A DNA stretch of 64,000 bases, from assembly GCA_018806915.1 (NCBI GenBank), contig JAGKQI010000105.1, positions 2,728,001-2,792,000 on the forward strand, written 5' to 3'. Shown piece after piece: positions 6,218 to 36,096 of this stretch. The notes beneath the pieces are model-generated. The model did not search any database and was not told the origin of the DNA. It saw nothing but the letters and a program-made list of their open reading frames with translations. Source of the DNA: Phytophthora colocasiae (Eukaryota > Oomycota > Peronosporomycetes > Peronosporales > Peronosporaceae). How positions within the stretch are numbered: position 1 is the stretch's first letter; the number at the start of each line of letters is the position of its first letter. The position numbers and the translations under genes are program-made.

Positions 6218-6289
6218 AATACGAGCTCTAAGTAAATCGTTCAAAAATGAAGAAGCGAAGTGTCCGACACTTGACCACGTGTTAACTTG

Positions 6290-6560: not shown

Positions 6561-6653
6561 GCTCTAAGTGAAGCACCACAGACGAAATACGAGCTGATAC
6601 AGGTGAAGATGAAGCCTGAGGTGTTCAAATGAGTATATTACATGTTAATTTGG

Positions 6654-8384
6654 CGAACTGCTGCTGGTACACCGTTGTATTCCTGACCGAGGACAGCACA
6701 TGCGGCCCATGCATTGGCATGCGGAATGATCACGAATGGTCGATTTCTATCAGGATGCCGAAGCAATGGGGTCGAGACGATCTTGTGCTTCAGGATTCCA
6801 AATGCCTCCTTCGCCTGATCCAAATTCCTTCCCGCCCTGATCTGCTCATCCGAAAGTTCATAGAGAACAGCGGCAATAACCGGGAAGTCTTCAATGAATT
6901 TGTGATAGTAGTTCAGGCTTCCGAGGAACGACTGCACCCCTTTCAGGGTTTCCGGAAACGGAAGATCTAAAACACCTTTTGCAATCTTCGGGGTAGCTCG
7001 GATTCCTTCAGCACTGATTTCGTGGGACAGGTACGGGATGGCCAGCTTTCCAAATTCACTCTTCGGGAGGCTCACCGAGATGTTCCAATAACGCAGCCTG
7101 AATAGTAGTGCATCCAGATCTTCACATAACTGATCCCAAGTCGGCGCGCCGTGAGCGATATCGTCGATATACGAACTGCGTCCCAGTACCGGGTTCATCT
7201 GTGAAGGAGCTGGGATATTCCTCTGGAACACGGTCATTGTATCTGAGAGAATTGGCACTTGGATTCCTGAAGGGGAACTTCCGGATTCCAAACTTCCGGA
7301 ATCCAGATTCTTAGATGGAGTCAACTTCAGAAAATCCAAGACTTCCTGATCCACTTCTGCTTCCTCTTCCGGGGATAGGCGCACAAACCCCCACAAGCAG
7401 TTATTGATTACTGCCTGATATACCAAAGGGGCGTTCTTCAAACCGAATGGCATCCGGATCCACTGAAAGTGTCCAAAGGGGCACACGAAAGCGGAGATCA
7501 GCTTGGCACGTTCAGACATCCTGATAGCCCAGAATCCACTGGCCATATCCAAACTCATGAACCACATTGCGCTTTCGAAGCCAATCAGGAGATCGTCAAT
7601 CAGGGGAAGCGGATAGTTGGATAACACAATAAATCCGTTTACCACTCGATAGTCAATACACATCCGGATGTCAACACCGTTCTTCTTCAGGACAATAACA
7701 ATCGAGGATGCCCATGGAGATTCCGAGTGCTCGATCAATCCAGTTTCCAAAAGCTTCTTCAGAAGTTCGTACACTTTGACCGCTAAGTGAGGAGCGATAG
7801 AACGTGGGCGTTGCGCGACAGGTTTAGCCGTTCCAACATCCAGATCGCAAATCACACCTCTGGCGGGGGCTGGAGCCGCATTTCCGTCGCCCAGAAAGAT
7901 ACTGCGATGCCGTTTCAGGATTCCTCGAAGCTTTCGCTCTTCTTTTGGAGTAGTCTTTCCGGGTTCTCCCACATCTGCCTTCTCGATATCACACTTCGGG
8001 CTTAGCTCGTGTACTTCCGGAAGCATGACGAGTTGATCCTTCAAGTGTGACAACATATCACTCCCTTCATGCACATACAAAGCTGGTTCCAAGGCGAGCT
8101 CTTCCGCATTCAGATGCAGACACCTGACAAACTTCGTTTCCAGCTTCAGGATGGCCTTCTTCACAACTTCCAGATTAAATTGTCTTCCTGATGGATCCGT
8201 TCCAGAATCCTCTTCTGCGTCAGGCAAACCGTCTGGAATCTCGTCCGTTGGCACACTCTCATCCATGGAGATCGCATCAAACCACTCGTCACCATCGGAA
8301 TCCAGAAAACCATCGCCTTCTGGAACCTGTTGTCTTCCTGAAGTCTCATTCGAAATTCCTTCCCGATGTTCATTTACAGTCAAT
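6654..8384 (-). CDS. Gypsy pol: reverse transcriptase and start of RNase H
   Basis: About 575 codons. An acidic N-terminal stretch leads to a standard Ty3/Gypsy RT: WASSIVIVLKKNG, RMCIDYRVVN, PLPLIDDLL, FMSLDMASGFW (first catalytic Asp), FQWIRMPFGLKNAP, and SYIDDIAHG with the two catalytic aspartates. About 80 residues rich in Glu, Ser and Pro lie between the FGLKNAP motif and YIDD, several times the usual spacing. The thumb/connection (FLGSLNYYHKFI) follows, and RNase H begins at RPFVIIPHANAWAACAVLGQ, with Asn-Ala where many relatives have Asp-Ala-Ser. The frame then runs into foreign sequence at the inversion point. It lies one base back relative to the protease frame; that shift could be a second recoding site or a 1-nt mutation. 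Confidence 0.85.
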
Positions 8385-9624
8385 ATGCTATCTGGAATTC
8401 CGAAACGGCGGCATCTGGAAGCGGCCTTTCACCTTTCTGAATATCCTTCGGGGGATCTTGTAGTCGAACCATGCGGACTTCAGAACCACCCCTGGGAGGT
8501 CTCATCAAAAGTTTCTTGGGCCAGGGATATTCCGGCTTCTGGACACTTGGGGGTTGGGAAGCTTGAATCGCCTGAAGGTATCTCCGTTGACGTAATACTT
8601 CCTGATGAGAATTGGTGTTCTCGTAGATCAGGACTTCCCATTCACGATACCTCCGGAGTCCAGGTCTGACGAACCTTCCAAATGGATAGCATCCGTATTC
8701 CACAATCTGGGCGACCGGGGTGTTTGTGTCGATCCAAACATCCTTATCCGAAATATTTACCACCTTCACAGCGACCGCCCAGGACTTCGCCCCATATATC
8801 AGCTGCGTCACCCAGCGATCACCTCTGCCAGCCCAGACTACTTCACGTTGCGGATTGCTCTGCCCGTAATTAATCCGGACGACAGCTTGTTCACCTGGTC
8901 CAAGTATCAGGGTTTCCGGACTCCGGACTTCCAAACGTAATCCCTTCTTCTGCTGGTCGAAAGTTCTTCCGGAAAGCATAACGTTTTCTTCATCAGGAAG
9001 TTGGACCAGTCCTTCACGAATGCACAACCGCACTCCAGCAGAATACATAAAATCCATCCCAAGCAACACGTCAACACCTTCACCAATATTCGCCACCCAA
9101 AGTTCCAGAATGTAAACCACATTCAAACCCAGGGTAAGTTTCACTTCGGTTCGGGCAGTGATGATCGTCGGGACGCCTCCCAATCCGGATACCCGAAGCT
9201 GTTTTCCAAAATCCAGCTTGAGTTTGAGTCTACGCGCAAGATCCAAACTCAGCATGCTCACGGAAGCTCCGGAATCCAGAAGGATGTCTGTCCGGACATT
9301 GCTCACTGCACCATGCACCATCGCAACTCTCTTCGACGTCTCCGAACGGTGTTCTTCCCACCATCCGTAACTTTCACCAGGCTTCAATCTGAATTCTATT
9401 GGAGTGTCATCCCGATTGTCAGGATTCCAATCATCCGACCTTCCGAAATCATTGTCATCCGGAAGTTTAGAATCTGGAAGGAGAAAGTCGACATCTTGAG
9501 TCACAGTCATGCATTGATGGTTAGCTTGTCGTTTCAACTCTGAACCAACGTACGCTAAGACACACAATTCTGGGGGTTTCTTGAGCCCGGCGCGTTCTGG
9601 ATCCCCATCCAGCGGGCTTCCTAG
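8380..9624 (-). CDS. Gypsy pol: aspartic protease region
   Basis: The frame overlaps the end of gag in the -1 register and continues to the TGA at 8380. The retropepsin active site ILLDSGASVSML is present, followed by the hydrophobic VDVLLGMDF strand that pairs with it. A long C-terminal extension separates protease from RT. No ATG lies at a useful position, which agrees with entry by ribosomal frameshifting from gag rather than separate initiation. The stop at 8380 overlaps the RT frame by four bases. Confidence 0.8.
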   Translation of the reverse strand, partial: LGSPLDGDPERAGLKKPPELCVLAYVGSELKRQANHQCMTVTQDVDFLLPDSKLPDDNDFGRSDDWNPDNRDDTPIEFRLKPGESYGWWEEHRSETSKRVAMVHGAVSNVRTDILLDSGASVSMLSLDLARRLKLKLDFGKQLRVSGLGGVPTIITARTEVKLTLGLNVVYILELWVANIGEGVDVLLGMDFMYSAGVRLCIREGLVQLPDEENVMLSGRTFDQQKKGLRLEVRSPETLILGPGEQAVVRINYGQSNPQREVVWAGRGDRWVTQLIYGAKSWAVAVKVVNISDKDVWIDTNTPVAQIVEYGCYPFGRFVRPGLRRYREWEVLIYENTNSHQEVLRQRRYLQAIQASQPPSVQKPEYPWPKKLLMRPPRGGSEVRMVRLQDPPKDIQKGERPLPDAAVSEFQIAY

Positions 9625-9630
9625 TTTAAC
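9566..9630 (-). promoter_or_regulatory. Predicted -1 frameshift signal (slippery site + pseudoknot)
   Basis: On the minus strand the last gag codons are TTA AAC TAG, preceded by G, giving the heptamer GTTAAAC (9624-9630) directly before the stop. Slipping back by one base enters the protease frame as GTT AAA CTA. Five bases after the heptamer, AGCCCG pairs with a downstream CGGGCT, and inside it CTGGAT pairs with ATCCAG around a GGGG loop. CCCCC about 12 bases beyond the stem could pair with that loop to form an H-type pseudoknot. GUUAAAC is the slippery site of equine arteritis virus, so the heptamer is a proven type. The structure is a hand fold. Confidence 0.65.
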
Positions 9631-12600
9631 GGTTGTTCCCCAGAATCTGCATCTCCATCCAGAAGTTTCTTCCGGATAGCAGTCGGTATATCCAAAGCTC
9701 CTTGTTGAACGAGACTCTTGAGATCCCGAAGGGCCTCCAGCTCCTCACAACGCCCATCGTGATACTTGTTGCAGAAATCACACTGACGCATCCGACAGAA
9801 TCGCACAGGATGGCCCTTCCGATGACAGCGTTCACACTCGATATCTGCCCAACAATCCTCCTTGACATGTCCGAAATTGCGGCAGTTCTCACAGTACCTT
9901 GCACTGTAATTCGGATTCCGGAAACCTTGGCGTCTGGAGTCTTGATGCTCCGAAGATTGTTGGTCACCTTGGCGTCCTGAAGGGGATCGGGGCCTCCAGC
10001 CTCCCTCTTGAAGAATCTTGAAGACGGTATCTGAGAGATCATCCATGGTCGGGAATCCGGAATCTGGATCGCCAGACTTCGTAGACGCAGATGTTTTCGA
10101 GGTTTCCAGAGTCATCTTGTCTTCCTCATCCTGAAAACGGACGTGTCGGTCAGGATCTTCAGAGTCAGCGTCACTCTGAGCAGTGTATGCTCTTCCGGAT
10201 CCGGAACGCTTTGGGCGAAACTTATCACGAGGTACGTTATCCGCCCGGAAATCCCGCTTCGGAGGTGGAGTGTCGTAGTCGTCTTCCAAATTCAGTTCTT
10301 CATGTTGCTTCAGGACGTACTCGACATCTTCCAAACTCCGAAGGCGTTGACCTTGGAGGGTAGTCCGGAGTCTGGAATCCAGAAGCTTCTTGGTGAAGGC
10401 TTTCAGATGCTGCTCACGGAGCTTGGTCGATCCGTCGATCCGGATACCGGCTCTATCAGCCACCTTGTTCAGGCGGTAATAGAAATCCAAAGGCGTCTCA
10501 TGCTTCTTCTGAACCATCGTATAGTACCTTTCCGCATCCGAAGTCCTCGCCTTACAGTAGCGCTCCTTGAAAGCCTTCAGGAATCTTTTCCAGTTGCGAC
10601 GGACCTTCGGATCCAGATTCGCTCTCCAGTTCCGGACGGCCGGAGACAACTTGAGCTTCATCTCGTAGATTTTCACGTTATCGGCCCAGCCACCCTGAAC
10701 GGACATACTCTGGAAGCGTTCCAGCCAGCGCATCCGAGTGGCAAGCGCCGCCTTCTCATCGAAGTCTTCCAAAGTGCTTGCATTCACGAATGGCTTGAAC
10801 ATGTATGTCATCGTCCCTCCGGACTTGGTCGTCATCACCGCAGGAGTCTTGTCTTCGAACGAACTGCTATCCGAACTTCCGGAATCCGAAGAACTACTCG
10901 ATTCAGAACTTGGATCCGAAGAACTTGGATATCCTGAAGGGGATTTCTTTCTGGAAATTCCACCCTTCTCACGCTTGGACGTTAAACCCCGCTTCGACGA
11001 TCCAGACTCCTTGGACGAACGCTTCTTCGAGCCATCCTCACCTGAACGCTTCCGGATACCCCGGCTCTCGCTTCCAGACGCCTCTCTCTTTCTGGATGTC
11101 GATTCCTTCTTCACCACGAGCGCCTGGGGTGTCGAGGACTTGGCCACTTGAGCCCTAGGGGTCTTGGATTCACGAGTGACCAGTTGGAGAGCTGCCTCAA
11201 GCTGTGCGGCAAAGGCTTCATCTGGATTCCCAACATCTGTTTTACGAGAACTCAGATGGGATGCACCTCGGGATGCGTTACTGGATACTGGGTACAGAGT
11301 CGGATGATGGGACGCACCTGATTCCTGAGAATCATGATTACGCCCATCTGTCTCAGCTGCGACAGCGGCCTTGGCAACCACCGATTTCAGGTCGCGAACT
11401 TGGGTGGCCAAAAACTTCTGGACAGCCCTCGCTGCTTCTCCTTCCTTCTTCCGCGCAGACTCCGAGGCTTCGAGTTCTTGCTGAAGCTCCTTCACCTTCG
11501 CGTTCTTGGAGGAGCTCGACTTGGCGGCGGAACCTCGAACTGCTTCCGGGTGCCGCTTGTGAGATTGGTGTCCGGATGACCGAACCTCCAGATTCTTGAC
11601 TGTCAAGCGTGAATCCTCGTCAGAGACCAGATCTGGGATCGCTTCCTTCTTCTGGAAGAGTCTTTGAAACTTGGAATCCAGAAGGCGTTCAAGCTTCGCA
11701 TCCAGATCGCCTGACATCCTCTCCAGCGCAGACCCTTGCTGATCTTCCATCCTGGCCATGACCTTCTGAAGTTGGAACATGGTGTTCAGGGCAACTTGCG
11801 TGGATCCAGAACTGGCGGACTTCGAAGAGCGCTCAGACCTTGCTGAAGTTTCTGGAACTTCACGATCCCAACTCCCAGACCTCTGAATGCCTCGTGATCG
11901 AGATGCTTCTGCAGCCTGGGATTCCTGAAGCATTTCTCGCCTCCTTGAAGATGACTTTGTACGCTTCTTCCTGGGCTTCTCGCGATTCAAGTCTGATCCC
12001 TGCGGGACGTCTTGATCTTCGGCATCCGGGTTCCTGTGGGAAATCTGGAAAGCGATTCCAGAATCCATCGGCGCAGCACTTCCAGATCCCCGTGCGGTCA
12101 TCGCCATCGGCCTGAAGGCGGAGAATGGCATATGCGTTCCTGCACTTCTGCTCATCCCGAATCCAGAAGAATCCGAGGTGCTTTCTCTGGAAGTCCGAGT
12201 TCCGGAAGTCGCACTCGCCATTGATTCACTTGATCCTCCGGAAGTCTCGAACATACTGGAGGTACGTGCCGAATTCGTCCTATCAGAAAGACTATGGTAC
12301 GAAGACATGTGACTTCCGGATTCCAGATCCGCTTCCAGATTCCGGGCTAGCGAAGATGGCACAGACTGCAGGGATGAGGGCGACGGTGACGGGATTGACG
12401 ACGGCGGTGGCCGAGGCATCACACGTTGCACTCGCTTCGGCCGGATTTCCTGATAGGTGAGTCCGCGAGGACTCCGAACCTTCCGGAATCCAGATGCCTT
12501 CAGTCGTCTAGTGAAGTCTCGTCCCAGCAGAGATACCTCGTAATCCGACATGAATACACCTTCATCCTGAAATTGGGCTTCCGGATGTACTTGACAAAGT

Positions 12601-13922
12601 CGTTCCCTTCCAGTTGTCATCAGGATCTGGGCGTACTCCTGAGCTCGCGTCACTAGTTGTCTCCATTCGATCATCTCCACGACCAATAGCTGCAACATTT
12701 CCCCAACAACTTGCCGAACCAGATCCGGATGCACTTTGAAAACTCGCGTCCGGAACCATCCAGGCACCAAATTCACAAATCCAAATCCCGCTTCGAAAAG
12801 CATTGTCTGCAGGACTGCGATGCATTCACGAGGCGAAAACTCCTTCGGCGGGATCATGGCACCCTGAAGATCTTGTGCCCTTCCAAATGACCGACGTTGA
12901 ATCTGGAGTTCTGAAATCCAGGCGTCCGTCTGAGCCGGCATCAACATCCGGCGGTTCAGGTGTTCCGAAGTCATCAAGGCAGCCTGAATGAAACCTTCAG
13001 GATTCAGGTATAGTGGCGGCCAATCATATCCGACATCAGGTGCGAAGCTCCTTTCGGAATTGTCACGTTCCCAACGCCTCACTTGTTCAGCCACATATGC
13101 CTTCATCTGGATTCCGCTCATCTGGACTTCTGGCGTCCCCGGCGGTGCTTCCGGAGATTCTTCCATTCTGGAATCCGGAATACCAAACCTGGCAGCTTCT
13201 TGACGAGGCGCTTCTGGGGGCGCCGAGAACAGCGGCTCATCAGGATACAATGTTGGCATCCGGATTTCCGGAATCACTGGCGAAGACATGTTGGTATCCT
13301 CAAGCACAGTTTCTTCCTGAACCGGCGACAACGGGCGAGCTTCCTGCTTGACTCGTGGCGACTCTTCTCGAACATCAGGTTCGGCATCTAGATTCGCACC
13401 TTCCGGAGGAGAGTCCTGAACTCTATCCTCCGTAGGGTCTTCGATCTCGACAGCATCATCTCCCGACGCTTCTCTTCCAGAATCTTCAGTATCACTTCCG
13501 ACGACCTCAGACTCCTCACCAGCCGTGAACTCCTCCAGACCGGACTCGTTCTCGGCTTCCACATCCGGATCACCTTCCGATCCGGACTCTTCTGCATCCG
13601 GATCCGACATGGATCCAGATTCCTCCAGCCCAGGGTCGTCGTCTCCTTCCGAAATCTCTTCCGAATCACTTCCATCCAGACTTGCGTGGTGCGCTTCCTG
13701 AACGGAGGATTCAGATTCTTCTTCCAGATGATCCGACGACTCCTTCGCCTCTTGGGCAGCCTTTCGCTTCGCAGCGTTGGCCTGACGAGCTTTCTTCATG
13801 ATAGTATCCAAATCCTCATGCTCTTCAGGCTGCTGCCCCTTCAACCGACGCGACGATCTAGATGCCATTCCGCTTCCAGAATCCGCGTCTCCTCCTCTGC
13901 GTGCGCTTTCACTTCCAACCAT
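9621..13922 (-). CDS. Gypsy gag polyprotein with three zinc knuckles
   Basis: A 1433-residue frame from the ATG at 13922; the open frame extends slightly upstream to a GTG, which I do not take as start. The first ~270 residues are very acidic (Glu/Ser/Asp). A Ser- and Arg-rich middle with long coiled-coil-prone stretches follows. A retrotransposon gag core lies at about residues 1090-1250 (WLERFQSMSVQGGWADN, WRANLDPKVRRNWKRFLKAF). The C-terminus has two perfect CX2CX4HX4C knuckles, CENCRNFGHVKEDC and CERCHRKGHPVRFC, and a third variant CDFCNKYHDGRC. Gag of ordinary Gypsy elements is 300-500 residues, so this one is about three times as long. It forms the particle and packages element RNA. The frame is intact, with no stop. 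Confidence 0.85.
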   Translation of the reverse strand: MVGSESARRGGDADSGSGMASRSSRRLKGQQPEEHEDLDTIMKKARQANAAKRKAAQEAKESSDHLEEESESSVQEAHHASLDGSDSEEISEGDDDPGLEESGSMSDPDAEESGSEGDPDVEAENESGLEEFTAGEESEVVGSDTEDSGREASGDDAVEIEDPTEDRVQDSPPEGANLDAEPDVREESPRVKQEARPLSPVQEETVLEDTNMSSPVIPEIRMPTLYPDEPLFSAPPEAPRQEAARFGIPDSRMEESPEAPPGTPEVQMSGIQMKAYVAEQVRRWERDNSERSFAPDVGYDWPPLYLNPEGFIQAALMTSEHLNRRMLMPAQTDAWISELQIQRRSFGRAQDLQGAMIPPKEFSPRECIAVLQTMLFEAGFGFVNLVPGWFRTRVFKVHPDLVRQVVGEMLQLLVVEMIEWRQLVTRAQEYAQILMTTGRERLCQVHPEAQFQDEGVFMSDYEVSLLGRDFTRRLKASGFRKVRSPRGLTYQEIRPKRVQRVMPRPPPSSIPSPSPSSLQSVPSSLARNLEADLESGSHMSSYHSLSDRTNSARTSSMFETSGGSSESMASATSGTRTSRESTSDSSGFGMSRSAGTHMPFSAFRPMAMTARGSGSAAPMDSGIAFQISHRNPDAEDQDVPQGSDLNREKPRKKRTKSSSRRREMLQESQAAEASRSRGIQRSGSWDREVPETSARSERSSKSASSGSTQVALNTMFQLQKVMARMEDQQGSALERMSGDLDAKLERLLDSKFQRLFQKKEAIPDLVSDEDSRLTVKNLEVRSSGHQSHKRHPEAVRGSAAKSSSSKNAKVKELQQELEASESARKKEGEAARAVQKFLATQVRDLKSVVAKAAVAAETDGRNHDSQESGASHHPTLYPVSSNASRGASHLSSRKTDVGNPDEAFAAQLEAALQLVTRESKTPRAQVAKSSTPQALVVKKESTSRKREASGSESRGIRKRSGEDGSKKRSSKESGSSKRGLTSKREKGGISRKKSPSGYPSSSDPSSESSSSSDSGSSDSSSFEDKTPAVMTTKSGGTMTYMFKPFVNASTLEDFDEKAALATRMRWLERFQSMSVQGGWADNVKIYEMKLKLSPAVRNWRANLDPKVRRNWKRFLKAFKERYCKARTSDAERYYTMVQKKHETPLDFYYRLNKVADRAGIRIDGSTKLREQHLKAFTKKLLDSRLRTTLQGQRLRSLEDVEYVLKQHEELNLEDDYDTPPPKRDFRADNVPRDKFRPKRSGSGRAYTAQSDADSEDPDRHVRFQDEEDKMTLETSKTSASTKSGDPDSGFPTMDDLSDTVFKILQEGGWRPRSPSGRQGDQQSSEHQDSRRQGFRNPNYSARYCENCRNFGHVKEDCWADIECERCHRKGHPVRFCRMRQCDFCNKYHDGRCEELEALRDLKSLVQQGALDIPTAIRKKLLDGDADSGEQPLN

Positions 13923-14019
13923 CACAACTACGATCAGAAAGTTAGTTAGCACTCAGAACCCCTGAAACTAATAAAAAAAAAGAAAAATATAAAAATAACT
14001 CGGTAAAACCCTTTCGGTA

Positions 14020-14041
14020 TCGAATCCGGGCACGCGCACCA
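14020..14041 (-). other. Primer binding site
   Basis: Two bases inside the LTR the minus strand reads TGGTGCGCGTGCCCGGATTC and continues for two more bases. Its complement ends in CACGCGCACCA preceded by TCGAATCC, which looks like the T-arm and 3' CCA end of a tRNA, so 22 nt could pair with a tRNA primer. The specific tRNA was not identified. Confidence 0.8.
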
Positions 14042-14043
14042 GC

Positions 14044-15526
14044 TGTGACGAGGTGGGTGAACACTTTCCGGACTTTCTGAAAGAAAAACCCGGTCGCCCA
14101 GAACGTATAGCTGGTGGCCAGTCCGATTCTGGAAGGAAACTTCCGGATGACACTTGAGAACTGGGGTCAGTCTCTACCTTCCGGGATCCAAATGGGTATC
14201 CGGAAGGCGGAGTTGGCGTGTGACCTTGTGGTTATCCTCCTTGGTGTCGTTTGTCTTCGAGTATCCGAAGGGTATCACCAGGTGAGTTACTTTCAGGTGT
14301 GATCAGATCCAAAGATCCAAAGTACCAAAAGTACTTCCAAATGCAGTTAGTTTTCTGGAAGGCAAAAGACTATTAGCAGAGTCCTCTTCCAACAGTTAAC
14401 CAATACAATACAGAGAGTTAATATGCAAAACACGCAGCCGCTCTTATTCTTTGTGGCCCTCGAGCGGTGGGCACTCCCAATGCCAGTCGACGGGGTCTAC
14501 TTCCGGAACACTGACTCAGTTCCGGGACCCTAACAAGCGCACCACTTCCGGATAACCACTTGGTTTCCGGAAGACAATATCCAAGATCAGGATATCCAGA
14601 TGCCTGTATATCCAAATATCCAAAATCCAAATGCAATCTAGACTAGGAATCCAGATGCAAACGTCCAATCACACAGTAGTTAATTCAATACAGTTCCAAG
14701 GGGCCAACTACTAACAACCTCCCAAAACGCAGTTATAATATGAAATGTGAATCCGGAATCCGGATTCCAACTGGAATATGAAATAGGAAGATCCCTTCCG
14801 GATGCGCCGCCGGATCACTTACCCAACTTGGTCTCGAACCTTTGGTGGAGAGTCCCGCGGCGATGTACGCCCTTGGTGGCAAATTGAACTCTCTGTTATT
14901 TATATACAAGTCTTCTGCTAAAGATTCTGCTAACATCTTGTTTTCACTATAGGAAGCGCACACTCATCAGGAGGCGCGTGTCTCTGGCGCGGAACCCCGA
15001 AGAATTCCGGCTGGTGCCGAACACATCCTGGTCGGTCGTCTTGGTCGGTCGGTCTTGACTTGGCTTGAGTATACTCCGAACCTCAATGTCCATACTGGGT
15101 ACAAATCAGGCAGGGTCCGGACGCCCTTGGTCATCTGGATTCCCGATCCTTGGAATCCGGAAGTCCTCAGTTCAGTACTGCAAGCATGTATCCGGAACTG
15201 TGTATGGGCGACTGGATTCTTGAGTCCTTAGCCCTGACTGGAATGGCATCCCGATTCCCGAAATCTGGATCTGGATTCCAGAATTACGCACCAGGAATTC
15301 ACTTGGGCACCACATGGTGGACTTGATTCCTGAATAATGGACTCCGATCATGGTCGGGCATCCGGATTCTGGAAGTCCGGATTCCGGAAGTCCTAAAGCA
15401 ATAAGGTGAAAATGTGTTCCACAGCTCAGTCCCAGGTACTCGATGCCTCAGCCAATCACCTCTCGACATATTGGGTGGCTCTGGGAGGCGGTGTCCTAAT
15501 AGAAAATTTGAATCCACAGCTTCACA
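14044..15526 (-). repeat. Gypsy LTR (left, inverted copy), 1483 bp
   Basis: It starts TGTGAAGCTG at 15526 and ends CTCGTCACA at 14044 on the minus strand, with the TG...CA ends and a short TGTGA/TCACA inverted repeat. It is the reverse complement of the LTR at 34036-35639. It is 121 bp shorter, mainly because about 115 bp between two GCG triplets near 14870 are missing; a second gap of about 10 bp lies near 15200. Elsewhere differences are few. The base pairs outside its outer end (CAGA, 15527-15530) are the complement of the TCTG outside the other LTR. Confidence 0.95.
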
Positions 15527-18500: not shown

Positions 18501-19490
18501 CTTACACCAGAAGATGTCGAGAATGATACTGCGTGGATGGAAGATGCGACCATTCTGGTAACGAGTAATGTTGATAAAGCTGCTCTAACAGCTTGTGCAG
18601 CTCGGATTCTAGCACTCCGATATAACACCGTTGTTCTTCGATGGAGAAAACCAATACCAGACGTCCCACCGGAGCTTTTAGACCTGCTCTACAATGAACA
18701 AGACTATCCTAACCTATTTGGTTACTTTGTCCAAGAAGGACGCGCACAAATCCTGGACAATGGCAATGGAAATGTAGAATGGGGTGTCGCGAATGGTACG
18801 ATGTGCAGACTGAAATCCCTCGCCTGGATTTGCGATGACGATACTGACAGGGTTGTTCGATATTTACAAACTATATCCGTGTCATGTGGAGAGGTGATTG
18901 AGTTGCCGGTTGCTCCAGACTTTTTGAACGTACAACTAGTCACTGTTGAAGGTGATATCATCCCTGCTACAGACTGGCCACCTGAAAACAACTTAGCGAC
19001 GTCTTGGGACACAGATGCAAATGGTACAAGTATAAAAAGCAGCATCATCATCCCGATCGGTCTACTTACAACCAACCAAGACAAGTACAAAGTCAAACTC
19101 GCTCGAACGCTTATGCCCAAACCCATTGAGATAAAATACTCACAGCTTGCTGTTGAGTTGGCGTTAGTGATGACTGTTTGGAAGGCCCAAGGAACCACGC
19201 TCAAGAGAGTTCTACTCTATCTCGAAGGAACCCCGGGATCGCCCAAGTGGCTTGTCGACCATTTATACGTAGGGGTATCACGTGTAAGGCAAGCGCGACT
19301 TCTCCGATGCCTTCCACTGTCACCTGCCTACAAAAAATCGGTTTTAAACAAGTTACGACTGAACGAAGACACCACTAAGTGGCGAATGGATATTGGAATC
19401 GATGGTTACTGGCACCACATAGCACCGACCAATAACTACCTGTCATCCCGTTTTTTTTTTTTTTTTTCAAATTCTTTGATAGCTCAATAA
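15527..19490 (+). pseudogene. Helitron Rep/helicase, C-terminal two thirds
   Basis: The frame starts in mid-protein with the HUH motif GRLHLHMTVYG, then after a frame change near 15690 runs to 18159. It contains a Cys-rich CRLCRPAG segment, a YQQNYMTK segment with the two-tyrosine Rep signature, and a PIF1-type helicase with Walker A GGAGTGKS (about 17820) and Walker B VTDEVSM. An intron at 18160-18223 (GTACGT...CGACAG, 64 nt) joins W to SGDYLQLE in frame. Further frame changes near 18350 and 18475 precede the last helicase motifs, VMTVWKAQGTTLKRVLL and DHLYVGVSRVRQARLL. Helitron Rep nicks and replicates DNA by rolling circle. The N-terminal parts are at 35640-36096 (minus) and 40082-41533 (plus), so this copy is dead. 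Confidence 0.9.
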
Positions 19491-19670
19491 CTCGCATTCA
19501 AATGATGTTCCCCCTTGTGTCTTTTCGAGAACTTTCTAAACAACCATGTCTACTGCCGTTAGATTCTACGCCTTGTTAGCACCCCTGTCGCAGTGTGGTA
19601 ACTTGTGTTTGGGTCATTTCACTCACAACTGAATTTGCAGCTCCCACTAAAGGTAGTAGCACACACAAGC

Positions 19671-24938: not shown

Positions 24939-24983
<45 letters not shown>

Positions 24984-27633
24984 TCGAGGTCGAGGTCAAG
25001 GTCGAGGTCGTAGTGCTGCTACGAGTGGCGAACGCGACCACGGCTGCGGTATCATCGACGTTGAATCAGTTATAGACGGCAATGGCGTACGGATACAAGG
25101 TCGAAGCCCCGCTACGGGTGGTGTACATGACGACGGCGGTAAGATCATCGACGTTGATGCCGTCGACGTTGAGGGCGTCAATCGCAATTCTACCGGTACG
25201 GGCAGGGATAAAGGTAGGAACGCGTGAAGGAAGCGAAACACCACGCTACGAATTAACTGTGCATACTGTTGGCAGACGGCGGAAGTACTCGCGACGGCCC
25301 GCACGAAGCTGTGGATGGTGGAGGACGCGGTCGGGTCGCTGCTACGGATGACGAAATTCACAACAGACGAGTAGTCATTGACGTTGAAGCCGAAGAAGCT
25401 GAGAGCGTTGGTGGAAATCCGGCGGGTACTGGCCACCGACAAGGTGCGAACTACATGTGAGGATGCTTAGTGAAAGGTTGCTACTCTAACCATGTATATT
25501 GCAGAAACACCTACCAGGGCTCCTTTGACGCTTTTGGAGGATATTTTTATTGACAAATTGGTGGCGTTCTCGCCTGCACAAGAAGAGTGGATGAAGGCGA
25601 AAAGTTATAGAGTGATTGGAACGGCGTTTATCGTCGGTCGAGTCTGCCGTCGCCCAACGAAAGGAAGATTTGCGTCGCTGTTTCAAATTCGGTGGTTGGA
25701 CACACAGTTTCAAAGCGCTGTGGAGCATATCAATGTGGGCTTGGTTCAAGCTGGCATTGAAAATTATCGCTCGGTTACACGCCTGGAGAACCCGGAGTGG
25801 GCCGTGTTGACTGATTCGGCTGGAGCTGATGAATTGGAAGTTGGTGATGCAGCTGACCTGGATGTAGCCGGCGAGTATTACGAGTACGAATTTCCTGCGC
25901 AGCTTACATCGAACCTAGCTGAAGTTGAAGCAATACGAAACATGCGGTTTACCCCTGATGACCAAGTTGATGAGCCGATGGATTTATATACCCACGCAGA
26001 TGGCACTACCAAGACGCGTATTCGACCTGAGTACAAGTACATGTTTGAGCGCTCGGCCTGTTCGTGCTTCTTCGCGTATATTCCTTTGTATTTCTGGAGG
26101 CAAGTCGTTCACGAGACGAACCAGTATGCCATCATCAAGGGGGTCCGGATATCAAGCCCGTTCAGTCTACCTGAATTGATGACGTTTATTGGAATTCTCT
26201 TTTTCATGGCTTTAAACGACAAAGGGGAATACTCGAACTATTGGGGACCACAACCAGAAGATCGCATATTTGGTGGATGCACGACGTCTCTAGATGGTGT
26301 CATGAGTCTCAACCGCTTCAAACTCCTTAGACGTTGTCTCAGCTTCAAAGCAAATCCCACCAACTTACAAAAAGACGCTGCTGCTCGAATCCGCCCGCTC
26401 TTGAATCTACTAAAGGTGACAGGTGATGAGTACGTGGTTGTTGGGCGTGATGTCGCTTTGGATGAGGCCAGCGTCGCTTGTAGATCGCGTCAAGGTCGCC
26501 ATCTCATCGTTTTCAACCCTACAAAGCCTACAGGAAAGTACCATTTTAGGCTGTACATGTTGTGCTGTTCTACGAGCTGGATTGCATTAAACTACCGATT
26601 GCACTGCAATAAGTCTGACATTGCGGAGCGACTTGAAGGGGTGGTTACGCCGGATGAGACGGAGCTACTGCGAGAAGAGTTGGAAAAAGTCGCCAAGATT
26701 CGGCAGCATGTATTAGAGGTCGCGCGCCCGTTATTTGGAACAAATCGAGTGCTGAACATGGACAACTACTACACTTCGGTGCAACTACTCCAAGAACTCC
26801 GAATTAAAGGCCTTTACGGACGGGGAACAATCCGAATCAACAGCAAGCATTTCCCAGGGCACGCGATCCTTGACAAAGATCACGACAATTGTACCCGCGG
26901 AGATTTACGCCAGGCAGTCTCGTTAGAGCATCGCATGGTAGCAGCCTCTTGGTGTGACGGGAGTATCGTGAATATGGTCTCGACCGCGGACGCTTCCTCA
27001 GTATCTACCGTAACGCGCATGATAGCCCACGAACACGTTGAGTTTACTGCTCCCACGTGCATTCGGGCCTATAACAGTAACATGCAGGGCGTAGACCGCT
27101 TGGATCAGATTCGAGGGAGGTTTTCTATTGCAGATGGACACTCATTCAAGCGCTGGCACAAGAAGCTGGCACTGGCCTTGATTGATGTCGCTAGGGCCAA
27201 TGCATATTTGACGCGACGTCTTGTCAGACCGAACGATATCACCCGTGACCCCCACCGCGTCTTTATGACGGAACTCGTACACGAACTTATCAATGGTCAT
27301 TGGAAAGAAGTGGCAAGCGAAGGTCAGATGCTATTTGGAAGCCGGATACCGCATGACTTTGAGCCTGGCCAGTCTACTGGAACTACACCACTAAGTTCCC
27401 GATCCAACCAGGTACATAGCAGTCCATCTGTAATAGCCTGTGCCTCGGTGACATCTAAGCAAGTATACGAAGACAAAAGTCGGAAACGCCGCCGCTGCAT
27501 TATATGCAGATGGGAAGGTAGATATCCTACTGAAATTACCAACTACTGTCATACACACGGTGTGTGTCTCTGCAGTGGTGTTCATCGCAAGCCCCACAAG
27601 CCGTGGACGTGTCCGGATACAACTTGGACTTGA
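23010..27633 (+). CDS. PiggyBac transposase with duplicated RG-rich exons
   Basis: Eleven... exons, counted from the sequence as ten: 23010-23322, 23384-23530, 23596-23796, 23862-24050, 24115-24303, 24369-24557, 24622-24810, 24875-25213, 25276-25443 and 25505-27633. All nine introns are 61-65 nt, have GT...AG ends (mostly GTGAGT...CTGACAG) and split codons after base one, and the exons sum to 4053 nt (1350 residues plus stop). The N-terminus is a basic SGTRKRTKATQ segment. The middle is RG/RGG-rich. The last exon is a PiggyBac DDE domain: DGVMSLNRFKLLRRCL, VALDEASVACRSRQGRH, LNMDNYYTSVQLLQEL, YNSNMQGVDRLDQIRGRFSI, and a C-terminal Cys/His finger (CIICRWEG...CHTHGVCLC) that in PiggyBac binds the ends. 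No stop interrupts it, so it may be active. Cut-and-paste transposition at TTAA is known for the family; the role of the RG array is not. Confidence 0.85.
23531..24874 (+). repeat. Tandem exon + intron array
   Basis: One 201-nt exon (23596-23796) and four 189-nt exons (23862-24050, 24115-24303, 24369-24557, 24622-24810) alternate with six near-identical introns of 64-65 nt, giving a period of 253-254 bp (266 bp for the first). The last four units are almost identical. Each exon encodes DVNLSRDDVRL, then Arg-Gly repeats, then AVTSGEQDQDVAVSIGGGSV. All introns are phase 1, so units can be gained or lost without changing the frame. Reading through an intron reaches a stop (TAA or TGA) within it, so each must be spliced. 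Confidence 0.9.
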
Positions 27634-27765
27634 TGGGAGCGTTATCATCGATTTTATTTACCTCAAGGGCTCTTTACCACCAAAGGCAATATCTGTCGAA
27701 GTTCAGCGCTAGCAAGGTTGAGACAACAGCTAGAAGTCGTAGACGCGAAACCTGCCACCCTGTCC

Positions 27766-30470
27766 GGTATACTGGCCGCGTCCTGAATGATTCCGAAATC
27801 CGTTATCATATTGCGGAAAAGGAAGTCATTGCGATACTGAGAGTACTTCAGGTCTTCCGAACGCTGATTGAGCAGTCCGAACTGATTGTGTACACCCGAT
27901 ACTCCGTCCTGAAGTGGGTCATCACCTCGAAGTCTGCTGATGGTAGGTGTGTTCCTTGGGGACTTGCACTTTCACATTGGAATCTGGATATCCGGAAGGT
28001 TCAAAGGGACGAAGACGGATTGGCTGCGATAATGGGTGCTGGGATAACCCCACGAGAGCATCTGGATAAGATTTCGGAATCCCTGATCCCTTCGAAAGGA
28101 CGCATCCGGAAGCCGCCAGTGGTGAGCATCGAGATGTTGGAAGCGAACTACGAAGGTGTTATCCTGAGTTTCGATGGTGCTGCCAAGACTTCCACCCGGA
28201 AAGGAAGTTGCGGGTGTGTTCTCTGGAAGCTACCTGGATGGAAGGTTCTGGAAGCCCGAGGTTTCATTCTGGATGACGTCACCGTGAATGACGCGGAGTA
28301 CCATGGACTTCTGAAGGGCATGAATATGGCATCTGGAAGAGGCATTCAGGATTTGGTGGTTGTGGGAGATTCCAGAATTGTGATTCAGCAAGTACAAGGA
28401 CTGATCAACTGTAACCAACCACATCTTCAGAAACACCTCGCGGAAGCGGAAGTTCTGAAATCCAGATTTCAGAAGGTCAGATTTGTGCATCTCAAACGAG
28501 AATACAATCAGGCTGCCGACTACCTGACGACCAAGACATTGGTTCAAGGAGAATCCTGGGAGGTTTCCGACGAAAGTGACCTGAGGCATTTGGAACTTGT
28601 TTCCAAAATCCAAGAGAAGTTGGTGAAATCAGAAATGTCGGAGGCCCTTCCTTCAGATATCCAGATTCAGGAATCTGGAATCCCGGATGACAACGACCTT
28701 CCCGGACCAGATTCGGAACCGTTACCAGAGTCTGCGCGAGTGATGGCTGTCATTGCAGAAGCTGGGGATCCAGAAGGAAACGATCCGGATGCCCCTCCGA
28801 TGGGACCATTGGAACTTCAAGCCGAGCGTTGGAGACGGATCAAGGTCCATCAGGATGCCGACGAATACCTGTCTGAGCTGAAGGCGTTCCTGAAAGGGGA
28901 TTTCCAGAGGTTTTCGCATAAACGTCTCCGGAAGATTGCAAAGGTTGCTGACTTGTTCACTTTGGATTCCAGAAACATTCTCTTCAGGATGTCCACAGTC
29001 ACCCAGAAGCGACCTCGAGATTTTCTGGGAGAACTTCGATTGGTGGTTCCGGAATCCTTACGTTCTGATATGCTTCACTATGCCCACGAAGATTTCCAAG
29101 GTGGACACCAGGGCATCCGGAGGACTCATGAGAAATTGCTTTCGGAATACTATTGGCCTGGGATGTATGCAGATGTGGAACGCCATGTGAAGGAGTGTGT
29201 GGATTGTGCATCCGGAAAGGGACGGCCTCCGAATCCAGGTCCGTCACCTGGAAACATCGAGCCATCATGTCCTTTCGAAGTTGTCTCGATGGATTTCGTG
29301 ACGCACCTTCCAAAATCCGCACGCGGAAACACTTTCCTACTCCTGTTTCAGGATATGTTTTCCGGATACGTGATGTGCAAGCCCATGTCTTCGACGACTG
29401 CCCAAGATGTTGCAGAAGTGTATGAACAAGTGGTATTCCAGAAGTTTGGATCAAGTTCCCTGATCCGACACGATCAGGATCCCCGATTCATGAGTGCCGT
29501 CTTCGAGTGCTTCCAGAATCTACTTGGGAGTCTCCAAAGGGCAACATTGGGATACCGTCCGCAGGCAAATGGCCAGCAGGAACGTTCCGTTCAGACGGTA
29601 GTTCGAAGCATCCGGGCGTATATTATGGAAGCGGATCAAAGTGATTGGGATGACCATGTGGAAAGGCTGATGTTCGCTCTAAATACCTCTTTCGATGCAA
29701 CGCGCCTGGAAACCCCCTTCTATCTAATTCATGGTTGGGACGCCCAGAGTACAATTTCAGCAATGCTGGGTCCAAAGCCACATAGTATTCCTGAAAGGTC
29801 AGCGTACGAATGGAGACGAAAAATGCAGAGGGACTACAGCTACGCTGTAGCTTTTGCAGAAGGACTTCAGAAGAAAGCCAAGCGTCACCGTTCCGAAATC
29901 CAAACGCAAAAGTGGAAAGAGCTTTCGGAAAGGCTGAAATCCGGATTTTCGGAAGGCGATTCCGTGTGGTTATATATTCCGAAAGTCCAGACTGGGCTAA
30001 GTAGGAAACTGGCCCACATGTGGCATGGACCATTCCGGATTGCTGAAGTGCATCAGGACTTCCGGGTGAAACTCAAGGTCGAGGGCACGGGATATCGTGT
30101 CAACCCTTGGGTGCATATCAGCCGCTTGAAACCCCGAGCACTCTTCCCGAAACGTCCTACCACGGAGATCCAAGTGGACGAGGACGATGACTTTGACGCT
30201 GCCCTTCTTCCGGAAGACAGTTGGAATCCGGATGCCGAAGAGAACGAGTTCGAAGTCGAAAAGATTTTGGATCTTCGATGGTCCAAACGTACTCGGACGT
30301 CGAAAAGGAATCGGGAATACCTGGTCAAATGGAAAGGCTATCCGGATCCGGAATGGCTTCCAGTGTCCCAGTTAAGCTGCGGTGCCCTTCTTTACGAATT
30401 TAATCAAGGAGCAAGGGCGCGAGCGAGGTTCCAGGCTATGCAAGCCGGGGACGACCATCCCCAAGTCTAG
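27766..30470 (+). CDS. Gypsy pol: RNase H, integrase, chromodomain
   Basis: About 900 codons with no stop. RNase H continues with IRYHIAEKEVIAI. A second ribonuclease H-like unit follows (VILSFDGAAKTSTRKGSCG, NDAEYHGLLKGM, VVVGDSRIVIQQVQG), as in elements with an archaeal-type RNase H added. The integrase zinc finger has H/H/C/C in HEDFQGGHQG and CVDCASGKG-like spacing. The core has D in VVSMDFVTHLP, D in LIRHDQDPRFMS, and E in ANGQQERSVQ. A GPF/Y-like PFRIAEVHQDFRVKLKV segment comes next, and the C-terminus is a chromodomain (EKILDLRWSKR, YLVKWKGYPDPEWLPVSQL) that in chromoviruses steers integration to marked chromatin. The plus-strand frame reads upstream across the breakpoint into PiggyBac flank by chance. 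Confidence 0.9.
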
Positions 30471-30734
30471 ACTTCCGGATGCTATCATCCGGGAAGTTTT
30501 GAGAAGGGGATTCCTGAACTGTGACTACCGATTGAACTTTGATTTGATTACGATTGGAAACTGATTTCGGATTATGATGGAACTTTGGAATCCTGGGTTT
30601 CAGAAGGATGGATATGAAGGAGATGAACAAAAGCTGACTTTTGGAGAAGTGAGGTGTATTACGAGTGATTAGTGACGAATTACGTATGGAAAACATGGAG
30701 AATTGGAAGACTCACTCGATCTGAACTACACCTC

Positions 30735-33558
30735 CTAGTTTCCGTAGTTCCAAAGGGCATCGATCCGGATGCGCTGATCCGCAGGAATCAGGGTGCTTTG
30801 GACTTCCGGTGGAAGATGAGCAATGCGATCCTGATCCGAAGTGGAGAAGCTCCACTGAACACGTGCAGGCTCCATGGCATCCAGAATCCCAAGCTGTTCC
30901 TTGAGCGAGTATGGTTCCGAAGTCCCAGGCTTGAAGTGTTCTGGATCCATCAGGATCCAGTGACAAAGTTTCGCAGGGTACTTCCAGACGCACGTCTCAT
31001 TCCAGATGGATTTTGGAAGCTTGGAAGAGATCTTCTGGAGCAACGGGATCGCCTTCTTCCTAAGGGACGAGTGGCGCTTCGATCGCTCGGAGTAGATCCG
31101 CACGAGCTTCGGATGCACAGCTTCGGAAGTGTCGAACGTGAGCCAATGAGTTTCTTCCCAGAAGGCCTGGAGATGACCGCTCACGAAAGAAAGCCAGGTG
31201 TCAAGAGCCTCCAAGGCGTTCGCATCCAGATCGCTGCGCTTATGGAAGAGTAGATCCCGAGGCCGACAACTGTATGCGTGTTCCCAAGGACGCTCATCCA
31301 GAAGCGGAGGAAGCTCGGACGCCCGGATCACGAAGCGCTCTTTCAGAAGGTCGAAATCAAACCTGTTGGGAGCGGAATCCGGAAACCCGAGAGTCTGAGT
31401 GGTCGCTGTGGACGTCGGATCTCCCTTCTTCATACGAACTCCGTAGTGGAGCCAAGATGCCACTCCCTCGGTCGGATTCTCGATGGTCTGCTTGTCGAGT
31501 CTTGTCAGGTTCCCAAAGTCTTTGGCAGCTAGATAGGAGGTTGACCGGTCATGTGCACGATAGCCCCTGGATGCTGACTTGGGAGAGCGGTTGGAACGAC
31601 GACGCTTGGATTTCGGAGACTGAACGTCAGGATCACGGCGAGAGGAACTTGAGTGGCCCTGATCATCATCTGGATGCACCACCTCTGTCTCATCTGGAAT
31701 GAAGTCTTCATCCACTGTCTTGTCATCCACCGTTTCCGTAACCAAGGCTTCCGGATCCGGATCTTCGACGTCGTCTTCTCCATCCACAAGAGGTCCCCAG
31801 TACTCTGGCTCGATACCTTCATCCTGAAGTCCATCGAGAACACCTTCAGCCATTTGGAAGTACCGACGCGGGACGTACTTGGTCCACGGAATGTCATCCA
31901 ACTTGTTCCAGAACATCATCCGAGTGAGCATCTCCACGAGAGGTTTCAACTGGAAAGCCACGTGAACTGCACGGTCTTCACGAATCCATTCCAGAGCCCC
32001 GGTATACTTGACTCCAGACATCATGAGTTTCTGAAGATCCAGACGCAAGTCACTCCAGACAACCGGGTAGTCCGTCAAGGACTCTCGAGCTTGCTTCTCC
32101 GTCCAGACTAGATGATATTTGTCACTCCGACAGTCGTCATCCGAATGTTTAATCCACTCAGAAGGACGAGCCTGAATCACGTCGGGAGCCCTTGGGACCT
32201 TCTTCGAAGACTTGAATCCGGAACTGGAACGCTTGCGCTTGGAAGAAGACTTGGAACTTGGATTTCCGGATGCAGGTGCGCCAGAAGAACCACGACTCAG
32301 ATCCAGATACGACGACGAATCGCTCTCCTTGGCATCACCGTCATCACTTCCGTGAGAAGGATGCAGTTCGACGAAAGGGGCCGAAGTGTGTCCTGGGTCA
32401 TCCGTGGCGATGACACTGATGACTGTACGCCATTCCGAAGGAACAGTTGTGCCGTTCTGAAAGTGCTTCAGGAGTTCCAGAAGCCGTTGCCAGTTCACAG
32501 TGACAGTCGACTGTCCTTCGCCGGCGCCAAGGAAGTTCATGACGTCGACAGCATTAAAGGCCAGTTTCTGGATGCGGTGTTCCAGAAGGCGATTCTGCGT
32601 CCGGGCATCATCCAAACGCTTCGTGAGATCTTCGACCTGCTTCCGGAGACCCCTCTTGTCGCGGTCATGCTCCTCCATCAGGTGCTTGATGTCGTCACGG
32701 GCGTTCTGGAGAGCCTCTTCTTTCTCAGAGACGGCTTCCGCGTGTCGAAGATCCAGATGACTTGTTACCAACTGGTAGTCCCGACGGAGCTCGGCGAGCT
32801 CATCGTGAACCCTGCCGACATTGACGAGATCCGGATCCCGATCTTCGAGCAGTGACTGCGTCCGGATGCACTTCTGGATGACTTTCCGAAGAGCAGAGAC
32901 GGTTCCAAAGACGCGCTGCGCGAGATTCTCAGGGTCGTACTCCGAATCAAGGCTGGCGATCTCCCTCTTGACGGCGACGCTATCCAGAAGTGCGTGAAGC
33001 TGGTCATCACGAAGCGAAGCTGGCCGAGGTGTCAGGATGAATTCCCGAAGGTCCAGATGACCGGCGCAGAAGTCGTGTAGCACTGCCATTTCCCTGGTGG
33101 ACAGCTTCTCAGAATGCATCAGGACTTCCAAACCGCCATAGCCGTTCCGAAGAAAACTGTTGCCATCACGATGCACTGTTGAAGCTGGAACGCCGACCAC
33201 TTGCAAGTTGTCGTCGCGCTCGTGGGATGGAGGGGTCTTGAAGTAGATGGGACGCGAAGATTCACTTCCGAACGCGGTGCCCTCGGACAGCCCGAACTCC
33301 TCCGCACTCTTGTGCGTGACAAACTTCGGGTAGACGCGATTGAGTGGCTCATCATCGTCCTCAGGGACGCCTCCGCCTCCACCTGCGGGCGGGCAAGCCT
33401 CCGTGCCCTCGGCACCATGTCTCCCTCATCAACAACGCTATCTGGACCCCTGTCACTGCCGTGTCGTCCTGGTGCGACTCAGCGCCACCAGTGTCGCCCT
33501 CAACCGAGGTGTTGCCTGGTGGAGGCGCCGTGAACGTCGAAGGAGCGTCTGCTGACAT
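30735..33558 (-). CDS. Antisense ORF of the Gypsy element
   Basis: A long frame on the strand opposite to pol, between pol and the 3' LTR. It starts at the ATG at 33558 (MSADAPSTFTAPP), shifts frame once between about 33370 and 33420, then stays open for more than 850 codons to 30735. The visible protein has coiled-coil-prone heptads (about 32600-32900), a Ser/Lys/Arg-rich, nuclear-localisation-like middle (SSKRKRSSSG, SKRRRSNRSPK), acidic stretches, and a Trp-rich C-terminal part (VWSDLRLDLQKLM, WLSFVSGHLQAFWEETHW). No family recognised. Antisense ORFs downstream of pol are known in some large plant Gypsy elements such as Grande and Retand, with unknown roles. Base composition and TCCGGA frequency match the rest of the element. 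Confidence 0.65.
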
Positions 33559-34021
33559 GATGTGATCGTGCGGAATCGCTTGGGTGATCTGGAGCCTTGA
33601 AATTGCGAAATGTGTGTGGACCGACTGAATGATTCTTGCCGTTTGGACGTGCGCTGGGACCGGGGCGCTTGGGACCGGACGCAGAAGAGAAGCCACGTCA
33701 GCCAATTGATGGATGGAATGTGACCCAGTGTAGTGATTTGGACTTCCTGAACCCGGATAGGGTGAACCCGGATACGTGAGACCCGGGTGGGTAGAACCTG
33801 GATACAGTGTGGGACGCCTGAAACCGGACCGTTCGACATTTGCGTGATGGGCATTTGGATGTATGGAATCCGGAAACGCGACTCGACGACAAGTGCCGTT
33901 GTGAATTGCGGGATTGTGATCTGGATGTCTGCGGTGATCCGGTGATCTGGACGACTTGCCCACGCTTCGTCTCATAAGGACCTGTCAAGCTCGGAGGTAA
34001 ATTCCTCAATGACAGCTCCTG

Positions 34022-34035
34022 ACGAGAGGGACGGT
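34022..34035 (+). other. Polypurine tract before 3' LTR
   Basis: ACGAGAGGGACGGT directly precedes the LTR start TGTGAAG. It is purine-rich with two pyrimidine breaks, a modest but correctly placed plus-strand primer site. Confidence 0.5.
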
Positions 34036-35639
34036 TGTGAAGCTGTGGATTCAAATTTTCTATTAGGACACCGCCTCCCAGAGCCACCCAATATGTCGAG
34101 AGGTGATTGGCTGAGGCATCGAGTACCTGGGACTGAGCTGTGGAACACATTTTCACCTTATTGCTTTAGGACTTCCGGAATCCGGACTTCCAGAATCCGG
34201 ATGCCCGACCATGATCGGAGTCCATTATTCAGGAATCAAGTCCACCATGTGGTGCCCAAGTGAATTCCTGGTGCGTACTTCCGGAATCCAGATCCAGATT
34301 TCGGGAATCGGGATGCCATTCCAGTCAGGGCTAAGGACTCAAGAATCCAGTCGCCCATACACAGACCAAGTGTATTCCGGATACATGCTTGCAGTACTGA
34401 ACTGAGGACTTCCGGATTCCAAGGATCGGGAATCCAGATGACCAAGGGCGTCCGGACCCTGCCTGATTTGTACCCAGTATGGACATTGAGGTTCGGAGTA
34501 TACTCAAGCCAAGTCAAGACCGACCGACCAAGACGACCGACCAGGATGTGTTCGGCACCAGCCGGAATTCTTCGGGGTTCCGCGCCAGAGACACGCGCCT
34601 CCTGATGAGTGTGCGCTTCCTATAGTGAAAACAAGATGTTAGCAGAATCTTTAGCAGAAGACTTGTATATAAATAACAGAGAGTTCAATTTGCCACCAAG
34701 GGCGCAAGTGGTCTTCTGGAAGATTTTCCTGGAAGATACTGCAAAGCACTGCGGACCAGCCTCTTGTCAGAGGGCTTCGAGTTAGCTGAGCCAGCGTACG
34801 GCCGCGTCGACTGCGTACATCGCCGCGGGACTCTCCACCAAAGGTTCGAGACCAAGTTGGGTAAGTGATCCGGCGGCGCATCCGGAAGGGATCTTCCTAT
34901 TTCATATTCCAGTTGGAATCCGGATTCCGGATTCACATTTCATATTATAACTGCGTTTTGGGAGGTTGTTAGTAGTTGGCCCCTTGGAACTGTATTGAAT
35001 TAACTACTGTGTGATTGGACGTTTGCATCTGGATTCCTAGTCTAGATTGCATTTGGATTTTGGATATTTGGATATACAGGCATCTGGATATCCTGATCTT
35101 GAATATTGTCTTCCGGAAACCAAGTGGTTATCCGGAAGTGGTGCGCTTGTTAGGGTCCCGGAACTGAGTCAGTGTTCCGGAAGTAGACCCCGTCGACTGG
35201 CATTGGGAGTGCCCACCGCTCGAGGGCCACAAAGAATAAGAGCGGCTGCGTGTTTTGCATATTAACTCTCTGTATTGTATTGGTTAACTGTTGGAAGAGG
35301 ACTCTGCTAATAGTCTTTTGCCTTCCAGAAAACTAACTGCATTTGGAAGTACTTTTGGTACTTTGGATCTTTGGATCTGATCACACCTGAAAGTAACTCA
35401 CCTGGTGATACCCTTCGGATACTCGAAGACAAACGACACCAAGGAGGATAACCACAAGGTCACACGCCAACTCCGCCTTCCGGATACCCATTTGGATCCC
35501 GGAAGGTAGAGACTGACCCCAGTTCTCAAGTGTCATCCGGAAGTTTCCTTCCAGAATCGGACTGGCCACCAGCTATACGTTCTGGGCGACCGGGTTTTTC
35601 TTTCAGAAAGTCCGGAAAGTGTTCACCCACCTCGTCACA
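34036..35639 (+). repeat. Gypsy LTR (right copy), 1604 bp
   Basis: It starts TGTGAAGCTG and ends CTCGTCACA. It is the full-length partner of the shortened LTR at 14044-15526, in opposite orientation. A direct TCTG (35640-35643) follows. It contains many TCCGGA sites. The region GTATTGGTTAACTGTTGG (about 35276) and TATATAAATAACAGAG (about 34665) are the most promoter-like AT tracts, but no function is shown. Confidence 0.95.
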
Positions 35640-36096
35640 TCTGCGGTTCAATTACACCATTGAATGCCGCAACTTTGCCGTATGCACCAGTTTCCCGATC
35701 CAAATAGCTCCGACTTTTTTTAATATCTCGCGAAGCCGGACAGCGCACCATCTTTCTTTCAAATGCAAACGCGGCTAATGCAGGACATCCATTTGACATT
35801 GATAATCGCAGTCTGGGGCTCTCTTTAATGTTTTGAGGGAGGTCTTCCCACCGGCAACTTGATTTACTGTAGATGCAGCACTCATCATTCCAATCGTTAT
35901 GGCTTCTTAAGTGCAATATGCGATGCAACGTAGGTCGTCTTGTTCTGGAGGAGCAACAGTAATCCAAAATTGAGGCAATCCAAACCGAAAACGAGTACCT
36001 TCTAACTTCGGCCGTGTTGCAGCACGTTCAAAAGGAGAAAAAGCCACCGTGTCGCCAATTACCGAAAGTATTCGCAATAAACCAGCATTTAAGCTC
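35640..36096 (-). pseudogene. Helitron Rep, middle fragment
   Basis: The minus strand encodes RILSVIGDTVAFSPFERAAT and RFGLPQFWITVAPPEQDDLR, a core phrase of the Helitron N-terminal Rep domain. A frame change near 35940 leads to CPALAAFAFERKMVRC and GAYGKVAAFNGVIEPQ. It stops at the Gypsy target site; the next expected residues, DGRLHLHMTVYG, are at 15531 on the plus strand. The upstream edge is at GATATC (36097), where Crinkler-like sequence begins in mid-domain. Confidence 0.85.

Follow-up and report, generated by a model that had tools for sequence, protein, structure and literature searches.

A 21-kb segment of the window has most probably been inverted through a nested Gypsy retrotransposon and a piggyBac transposon after both had entered one Helitron; judging by sequence comparisons with related copies, we put the probability of this reading at about 0.92. 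The window is the whole analyzed stretch of 64,000 nucleotides (G000:C22:2728001-2792000), and related copies were searched for in the assembly that contains it (92.5 Mb, 105 contigs). What the alignments presented below show directly is the former adjacency at every broken site, the target site duplications and the count of bases at the two junctions. Coordinates are collected in Table 1.

Table 1. Features of the transposon nest (positions are those of the window)
Feature	Position	Strand	Details
Inverted segment, corrected limits	6669..27755		21,087 bp; from junctions aligned with parent sequences
Junction 1	6650..6690		piggyBac to 6668, Gypsy pol (minus) from 6669
Junction 2	27740..27775		piggyBac to 27755, Gypsy pol (plus) from 27755
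Gypsy 5' LTR	14044..15526	-	1483 bp
Gypsy 3' LTR	34036..35639	+	1604 bp
Gypsy internal region, 5' part	6669..14043	-	long gag-region ORF, aspartyl protease, RT, first part of RNase H
Gypsy internal region, 3' part	27755..34035	+	rest of RNase H, integrase, chromodomain, then 3' region
Target site duplication, copy 1	15527..15530		CAGA on plus = TCTG on element strand
Target site duplication, copy 2	35640..35643		TCTG
Helitron part inside inverted segment	15531..22189	+	end of Rep domain and PIF1 helicase
Helitron part outside inversion, Rep-domain side	35644..36094	-	
Helitron 3' end part	2347..2706	-	terminal CTAG on minus at 2350-2347
Helitron 5' part, second inversion	39882..41529	+	reversed relative to 3 of 3 other copies
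TTAA, left end of piggyBac	2707..2710		single TTAA in both Helitron copies examined
TTAA, other end of piggyBac	22190..22193		
piggyBac part outside inversion	2711..6668	+	DOT1-like ORF 3018-4286, kinase-gene fragment 5361-6459
piggyBac part inside inversion	22194..27755	+	tandem repeats ~23.4-25.0 kb, transposase ORF 25474-27633
DOT1-family ORF	3018-4286		PF08123; between the piggyBac TTAA ends

The split Gypsy element and its junctions

The element belongs to the Ty3/Gypsy type according to the domain order of its pol (RT, RNase H, integrase) and its LTRs, both of which run from TG to CA and are accompanied by a short target duplication. Pfam matches above the cut-off were obtained for PF00078, PF17917, PF17921 and PF00385 (chromodomain); those to PF17919 and PF00665 in the same pol are below it. 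As the preliminary description had it, the two LTRs are mutually inverted and pol is split between the strands, with the domain matches placing RT on minus and integrase on plus. The size proposed there, about 16.7 kb, likewise agrees with the corrected limits, which give 8858 + 7885 = 16,743 bp. The LTRs differ by 3 substitutions over 1483 aligned bp (K2P 0.002) and by gaps of 10 and 111 bp, the 111 bp being absent from the 5' LTR (left) and present in the 3' LTR and at all seven further LTR loci checked. An ORF of 896 aa (30735-33425) lies antisense to the Gypsy 3' region; no Pfam match above the cut-off was found for it.

We queried the two halves of pol separately, the left one from 7253 to 6654 (minus) and the right one from 27766 onward (plus). 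Among the matches listed, 40 places were scored of 302 candidates for the left half and 40 of 176 for the right half. Outside the window, the left half occurs at 39 of these places; 23 belong to the same family (98-100%) and the other 16 to related families (79-82%). Among the matches listed, the right half adjoins the left one in the same orientation at 37 of the 39 places (21 of 23 same-family, 16 of 16 related), separated by 14 bp at 21 places, all same-family, by 16 bp at five and by 17 bp at 11. At C53:751937 the halves are 3 bp apart, still adjacent, within that copy's own inverted piece, and at the remaining place, C27:224664, the right half is not among the matches listed. Intact relatives with non-adjacent halves had been named beforehand as speaking against the inversion; adjacency is what the 37 places display, and in C53 it is retained inside the inverted piece. 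The C53 copy (L089, C53:750500-756500) is itself a Gypsy-family element with an internal inversion, in which a 1.6-kb piece is displaced around RT/RNase H.

The junctions were aligned with L025 as the Gypsy parent and L038 as the piggyBac parent. Junction 1 (6668|6669) has an overlap of 0 and no added base, and at junction 2 a single base pair (27755) is common to both parents. Neither junction retains six of the piggyBac bases and three of the Gypsy bases; with one more for the shared base, the two breaks cost 10 bp altogether, and nothing was inserted. Both breakpoints fall in transposons, one in piggyBac, about 120 bp past the transposase ORF, the other in the RNase H part of Gypsy pol. The junctions are reciprocal, with little homology and small indels at each, as in inversion by end joining.

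This placement revises the preliminary description in several respects. Its breakpoints, 6654 and 27765/27766, were 15 and 10 bp off, and the CG that it reported as common to both is not borne out by the overlaps. It had minus-strand pol stopping with ...GVPAAV at 6654; the split itself stands, but the final PAAV is piggyBac and not pol. Turning 6654-27765 around, which was to restore the element, its target duplication and the Helitron, does restore their order, but the limits have to be shifted, and the pre-inversion sequence is not preserved exactly because 10 bp were lost. The position of the outer breakpoint inside a piggyBac element is new to the present analysis.

The Helitron and the piggyBac element

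Read in the orientation of the Gypsy element, TCTG stands outside both LTRs, so that the CAGA and TCTG noted previously are indeed one target duplication. Duplications of 4 bp are typical of the family: among eight further LTR pairs from the LTR match list, seven are flanked by identical 4-bp sequences. The eighth pair (C53) does not consist of a 5' and a 3' LTR, because what follows its second LTR matches the start of the element's internal region. All three other Helitron copies (C101, C58, C22) run on without interruption where the Gypsy element sits in the window, and each has a single TCTG there. The Helitron frame had been described as breaking at 35644 (minus) and resuming at 15531 (plus), and the comparison agrees: in 3 of 3 other copies these flanks are 4 bp apart. 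The part inside the inverted segment is 97-98% identical to the three copies, the third having been followed only to 20012. In the flank search, four 148-bp matches inside the window's own array were set aside. The Gypsy element's Helitron flanks occur in the assembly only here and in the three uninterrupted copies, and no uninverted version of the locus was found in it.

The C101 copy (L045) is a single 1270-aa ORF that continues across the Gypsy site, with Helitron_like_N at residues 155-397 followed by PIF1; Rep and PIF1 are thus combined in one protein, as defines a Helitron. Judged by position, the Gypsy element entered near residue 387. Helitrons end with CTRR followed by a host T and start with TC. 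The 3' end in the window and in two other copies is CTAG (CTRR) followed by T. The 5' end, which could be placed only where similarity stops, is approximately TATACTGGG in the window and two copies and differs in the third, none of them having TC.

The piggyBac element is identified by its transposase (DDE_Tnp_1_7, PF13843, E 7.7e-48) and is inserted in the Helitron at TTAA, the two TTAAs of the window corresponding to one TTAA in L062 and L063. Both of its ends in the window read TTAACCC. All seven other copies share this sequence at the right end, and two of three examined share it at the left. The breakpoint is bridged by the same relatives. The sequence at 27166-27755 matches seven other piggyBac copies at 93-96% (three 85-bp matches at 76% were set aside), and the stretch left of 6653 matches the same seven at 80-83% over 119-192 bp (one C29 match, to the kinase fragment, was set aside). 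In each of these seven copies, the two flanks of the break, ending at 6653 and 27755, follow each other on the same strand with 21 bp between them; six have an identical layout and the seventh aligns straight across.

The full transposase frame is open in one of the seven other copies (L050), the rest having stops or frame breaks. The dN/dS ratio is 0.20 both for the window against L050 and for the window against L052; the values that involve L052, computed without realignment, are 0.20 and 0.15. Ratios of 0.88-0.95 obtained with L052 were rejected as artefactual; the aligner had most likely dropped stop symbols. A fragment of a protein kinase gene (5361-6459; 85-90% to C29) replaces about 0.85 kb of the other piggyBac copies looked at. 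The idea that it is an intron-less retrocopy was dropped, as the missing 132 bp resembles coding sequence by eye.

This piggyBac family probably carries, between its TTAA ends, a DOT1-type (H3K79-like) methyltransferase, which may act on the element's own chromatin or on that of the host. DOT1-like sequence adjoins piggyBac in 7 of 7 other copies; at an eighth DOT1-like place, on C93, no piggyBac match is among the matches listed. Four matches at 67% were set aside in this search. A single open frame of 397-432 aa is present in six of the eight, L092 (C94) being frame-shifted and the C93 sequence broken. Among the 21 pairs formed by the window and the six open copies, dN/dS is 0.16-0.57 in 18, many of which are not independent, and dS is zero in three pairs of near-identical copies. 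The sign of constraint is weakest for the window against its closest relatives (0.49-0.57). The SAM-fold region has weak matches among solved H3K79 methyltransferases (four sequences, E 2.7e-5 to 3.7e-4). A protein search returned 16 relatives; 11 of them are named as Phytophthora, and these 11 have 41-59% identity over 25-96% of the query. Our literature search returned no report of a DOT1-carrying piggyBac family and no paper combining piggyBac, Phytophthora and DOT1; the sole match for DOT1, oomycete and transposon concerns, in the excerpt available, Fusarium.

Order of events and alternative explanations

In the proposed scheme, two elements would have entered a Helitron: a piggyBac of 9.5 kb, at TTAA, and a Gypsy element of 16.7 kb, at TCTG within the Rep domain. 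Two later double-strand breaks, in piggyBac and in the RNase H part of Gypsy pol, would have been followed by rejoining of the intervening 21-kb piece in the opposite direction. The order first suggested, Helitron, Gypsy insertion, inversion, holds, with the insertion of piggyBac into the same Helitron also preceding the inversion. Both insertions came after the Helitron, in either order. Since the LTRs differ by so few substitutions, the Gypsy insertion is recent and the inversion more recent still. Given the overlaps of 0 and 1 bp, the 10 bp lost and the lack of insertions, classical end joining is likely, although the junctions alone fit other end-joining routes too. We infer that the two breaks were simultaneous and that they were repaired by end joining.

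An assembly error could have reversed the segment in the contig, and the LTRs, as inverted repeats of about 1.5 kb, could confuse assemblers. However, a mis-join caused by repeats would be expected inside the LTRs and without loss, whereas the observed junctions lie in non-homologous sequence, with 10 bp missing and an overlap of at most 1 bp. Moreover, two matching reciprocal junctions would both need to be false. On this argument, an assembly error is unlikely. Far less weight still can be given to two separate insertions, or two truncated copies, of Gypsy that face each other by chance. The family is indeed abundant in the 92.5-Mb assembly (among the matches listed, 40 LTR matches scored of 179 candidates), yet the halves meet within a few bases of the intact join, the two copies of the target duplication agree, other Helitron copies read through the insertion site and the halves of piggyBac match as well. 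Chance opposition is thus contradicted by the adjacency tests.

Two other ways of producing an inversion were weighed, and both appear extremely improbable. With one breakpoint in a piggyBac whose transposase frame is still open, an aberrant cut by the transposase at the element's own ends comes to mind. Those ends, at 2707 and 22190, are nevertheless in place, far from the breakpoints; a further TTAA (6645-6648), the closest one to the junction, lies some 20 bp away from it and is element-internal in other copies, and the Gypsy breakpoint has no TTAA. Recombination between LTRs or other inverted repeats could be invoked by analogy with the second inversion in the window, which has 2.5-kb inverted arms, but it is contradicted by the junctions of the 21-kb inversion, where the parents share no homology beyond 1 bp. 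Breakage within the nest followed by end joining remains the preferred reading.

The second inversion and comparison with known systems

The three other Helitron copies all continue from the position corresponding to 36094 through about 575 bp that are absent from the window and then from 41529 down to 39882. By this order, 39882-41529 is reversed in the window. The reversed piece is flanked by inverted arms (36096-38621 and 41538-44069) that are 99.4% identical, with 14 differing columns of which four are substitutions. Each arm corresponds roughly to a single unit of a tandem array (spacings 2535, 1883 and 1883). This array (41538-48832) consists of 1883-bp units, and two of the four ORFs scanned match the Crinkler N-terminal family PF20147; one match is clear (E 4e-18), and the other lies at the cut-off. 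Because the arms are about one array unit, we did not keep them as proof of staggered breaks; the second inversion may stem either from a staggered break that duplicated one unit or from a clean break between two near-identical units. Divergence between the arms (4 in about 2.5 kb) is similar to that between the LTRs (3 in 1.5 kb), which, to the extent that such small substitution counts permit, suggests that little time may separate the two inversions.

The surroundings of the nest hold several further features. An element at 49101-54846, matching RT and RNase H and bounded by identical direct repeats of 261 bp, is inserted in a copy of the sequence at 1818-2195. This 378-bp sequence (1818-2195 and 48835-49101 / 54847-54961; same orientation, 95-97%) is located at both outer sides of the nest and, within the assembly, only in the window. 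A TCP-1 gamma protein encoded at 60151-61734 shares 98% identity with clusters bearing the names of P. nicotianae and P. fragariae, which makes it very probable that the genome is that of a Phytophthora.

Simple inversion by cutting and joining, that is, end joining of two double-strand breaks, leaves reciprocal junctions with little or no microhomology and small losses. The 21-kb inversion resembles it in all these points and is a known kind of event. It differs from the generic case in that both breakpoints are within one transposon nest and the parental sequences are kept in related copies of the same genome. Later changes, or the absence of ancestral states, often obscure inversion junctions. 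In this genome, every parental sequence still has relatives, so the breakpoints, the losses and the order of events can be read to the base; the worth of the case is in this unusually clear and complete record. Since the second inversion starts about 8 kb from the first, the transposon nest beside Crinkler-type ORFs looks like a site of repeated breakage.

Staggered-break inversions with inverted duplications are described for Drosophila in the excerpt available of PMC5080602. Compared with that excerpt, the second inversion (~36.1-44.1 kb) is similar in its near-identical inverted end arms, except that they amount to about one array unit and that a clean break between units would look identical; the 21-kb inversion, unlike those of Drosophila, has no duplication. 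Inversions mediated by transposable elements are the subject of PMC12368964, and, as far as its excerpt goes, the likeness is that the breakpoints of the window lie in transposable elements. In contrast to such inversions, neither homology between elements nor an element end was used here, the elements being the sites of breakage.
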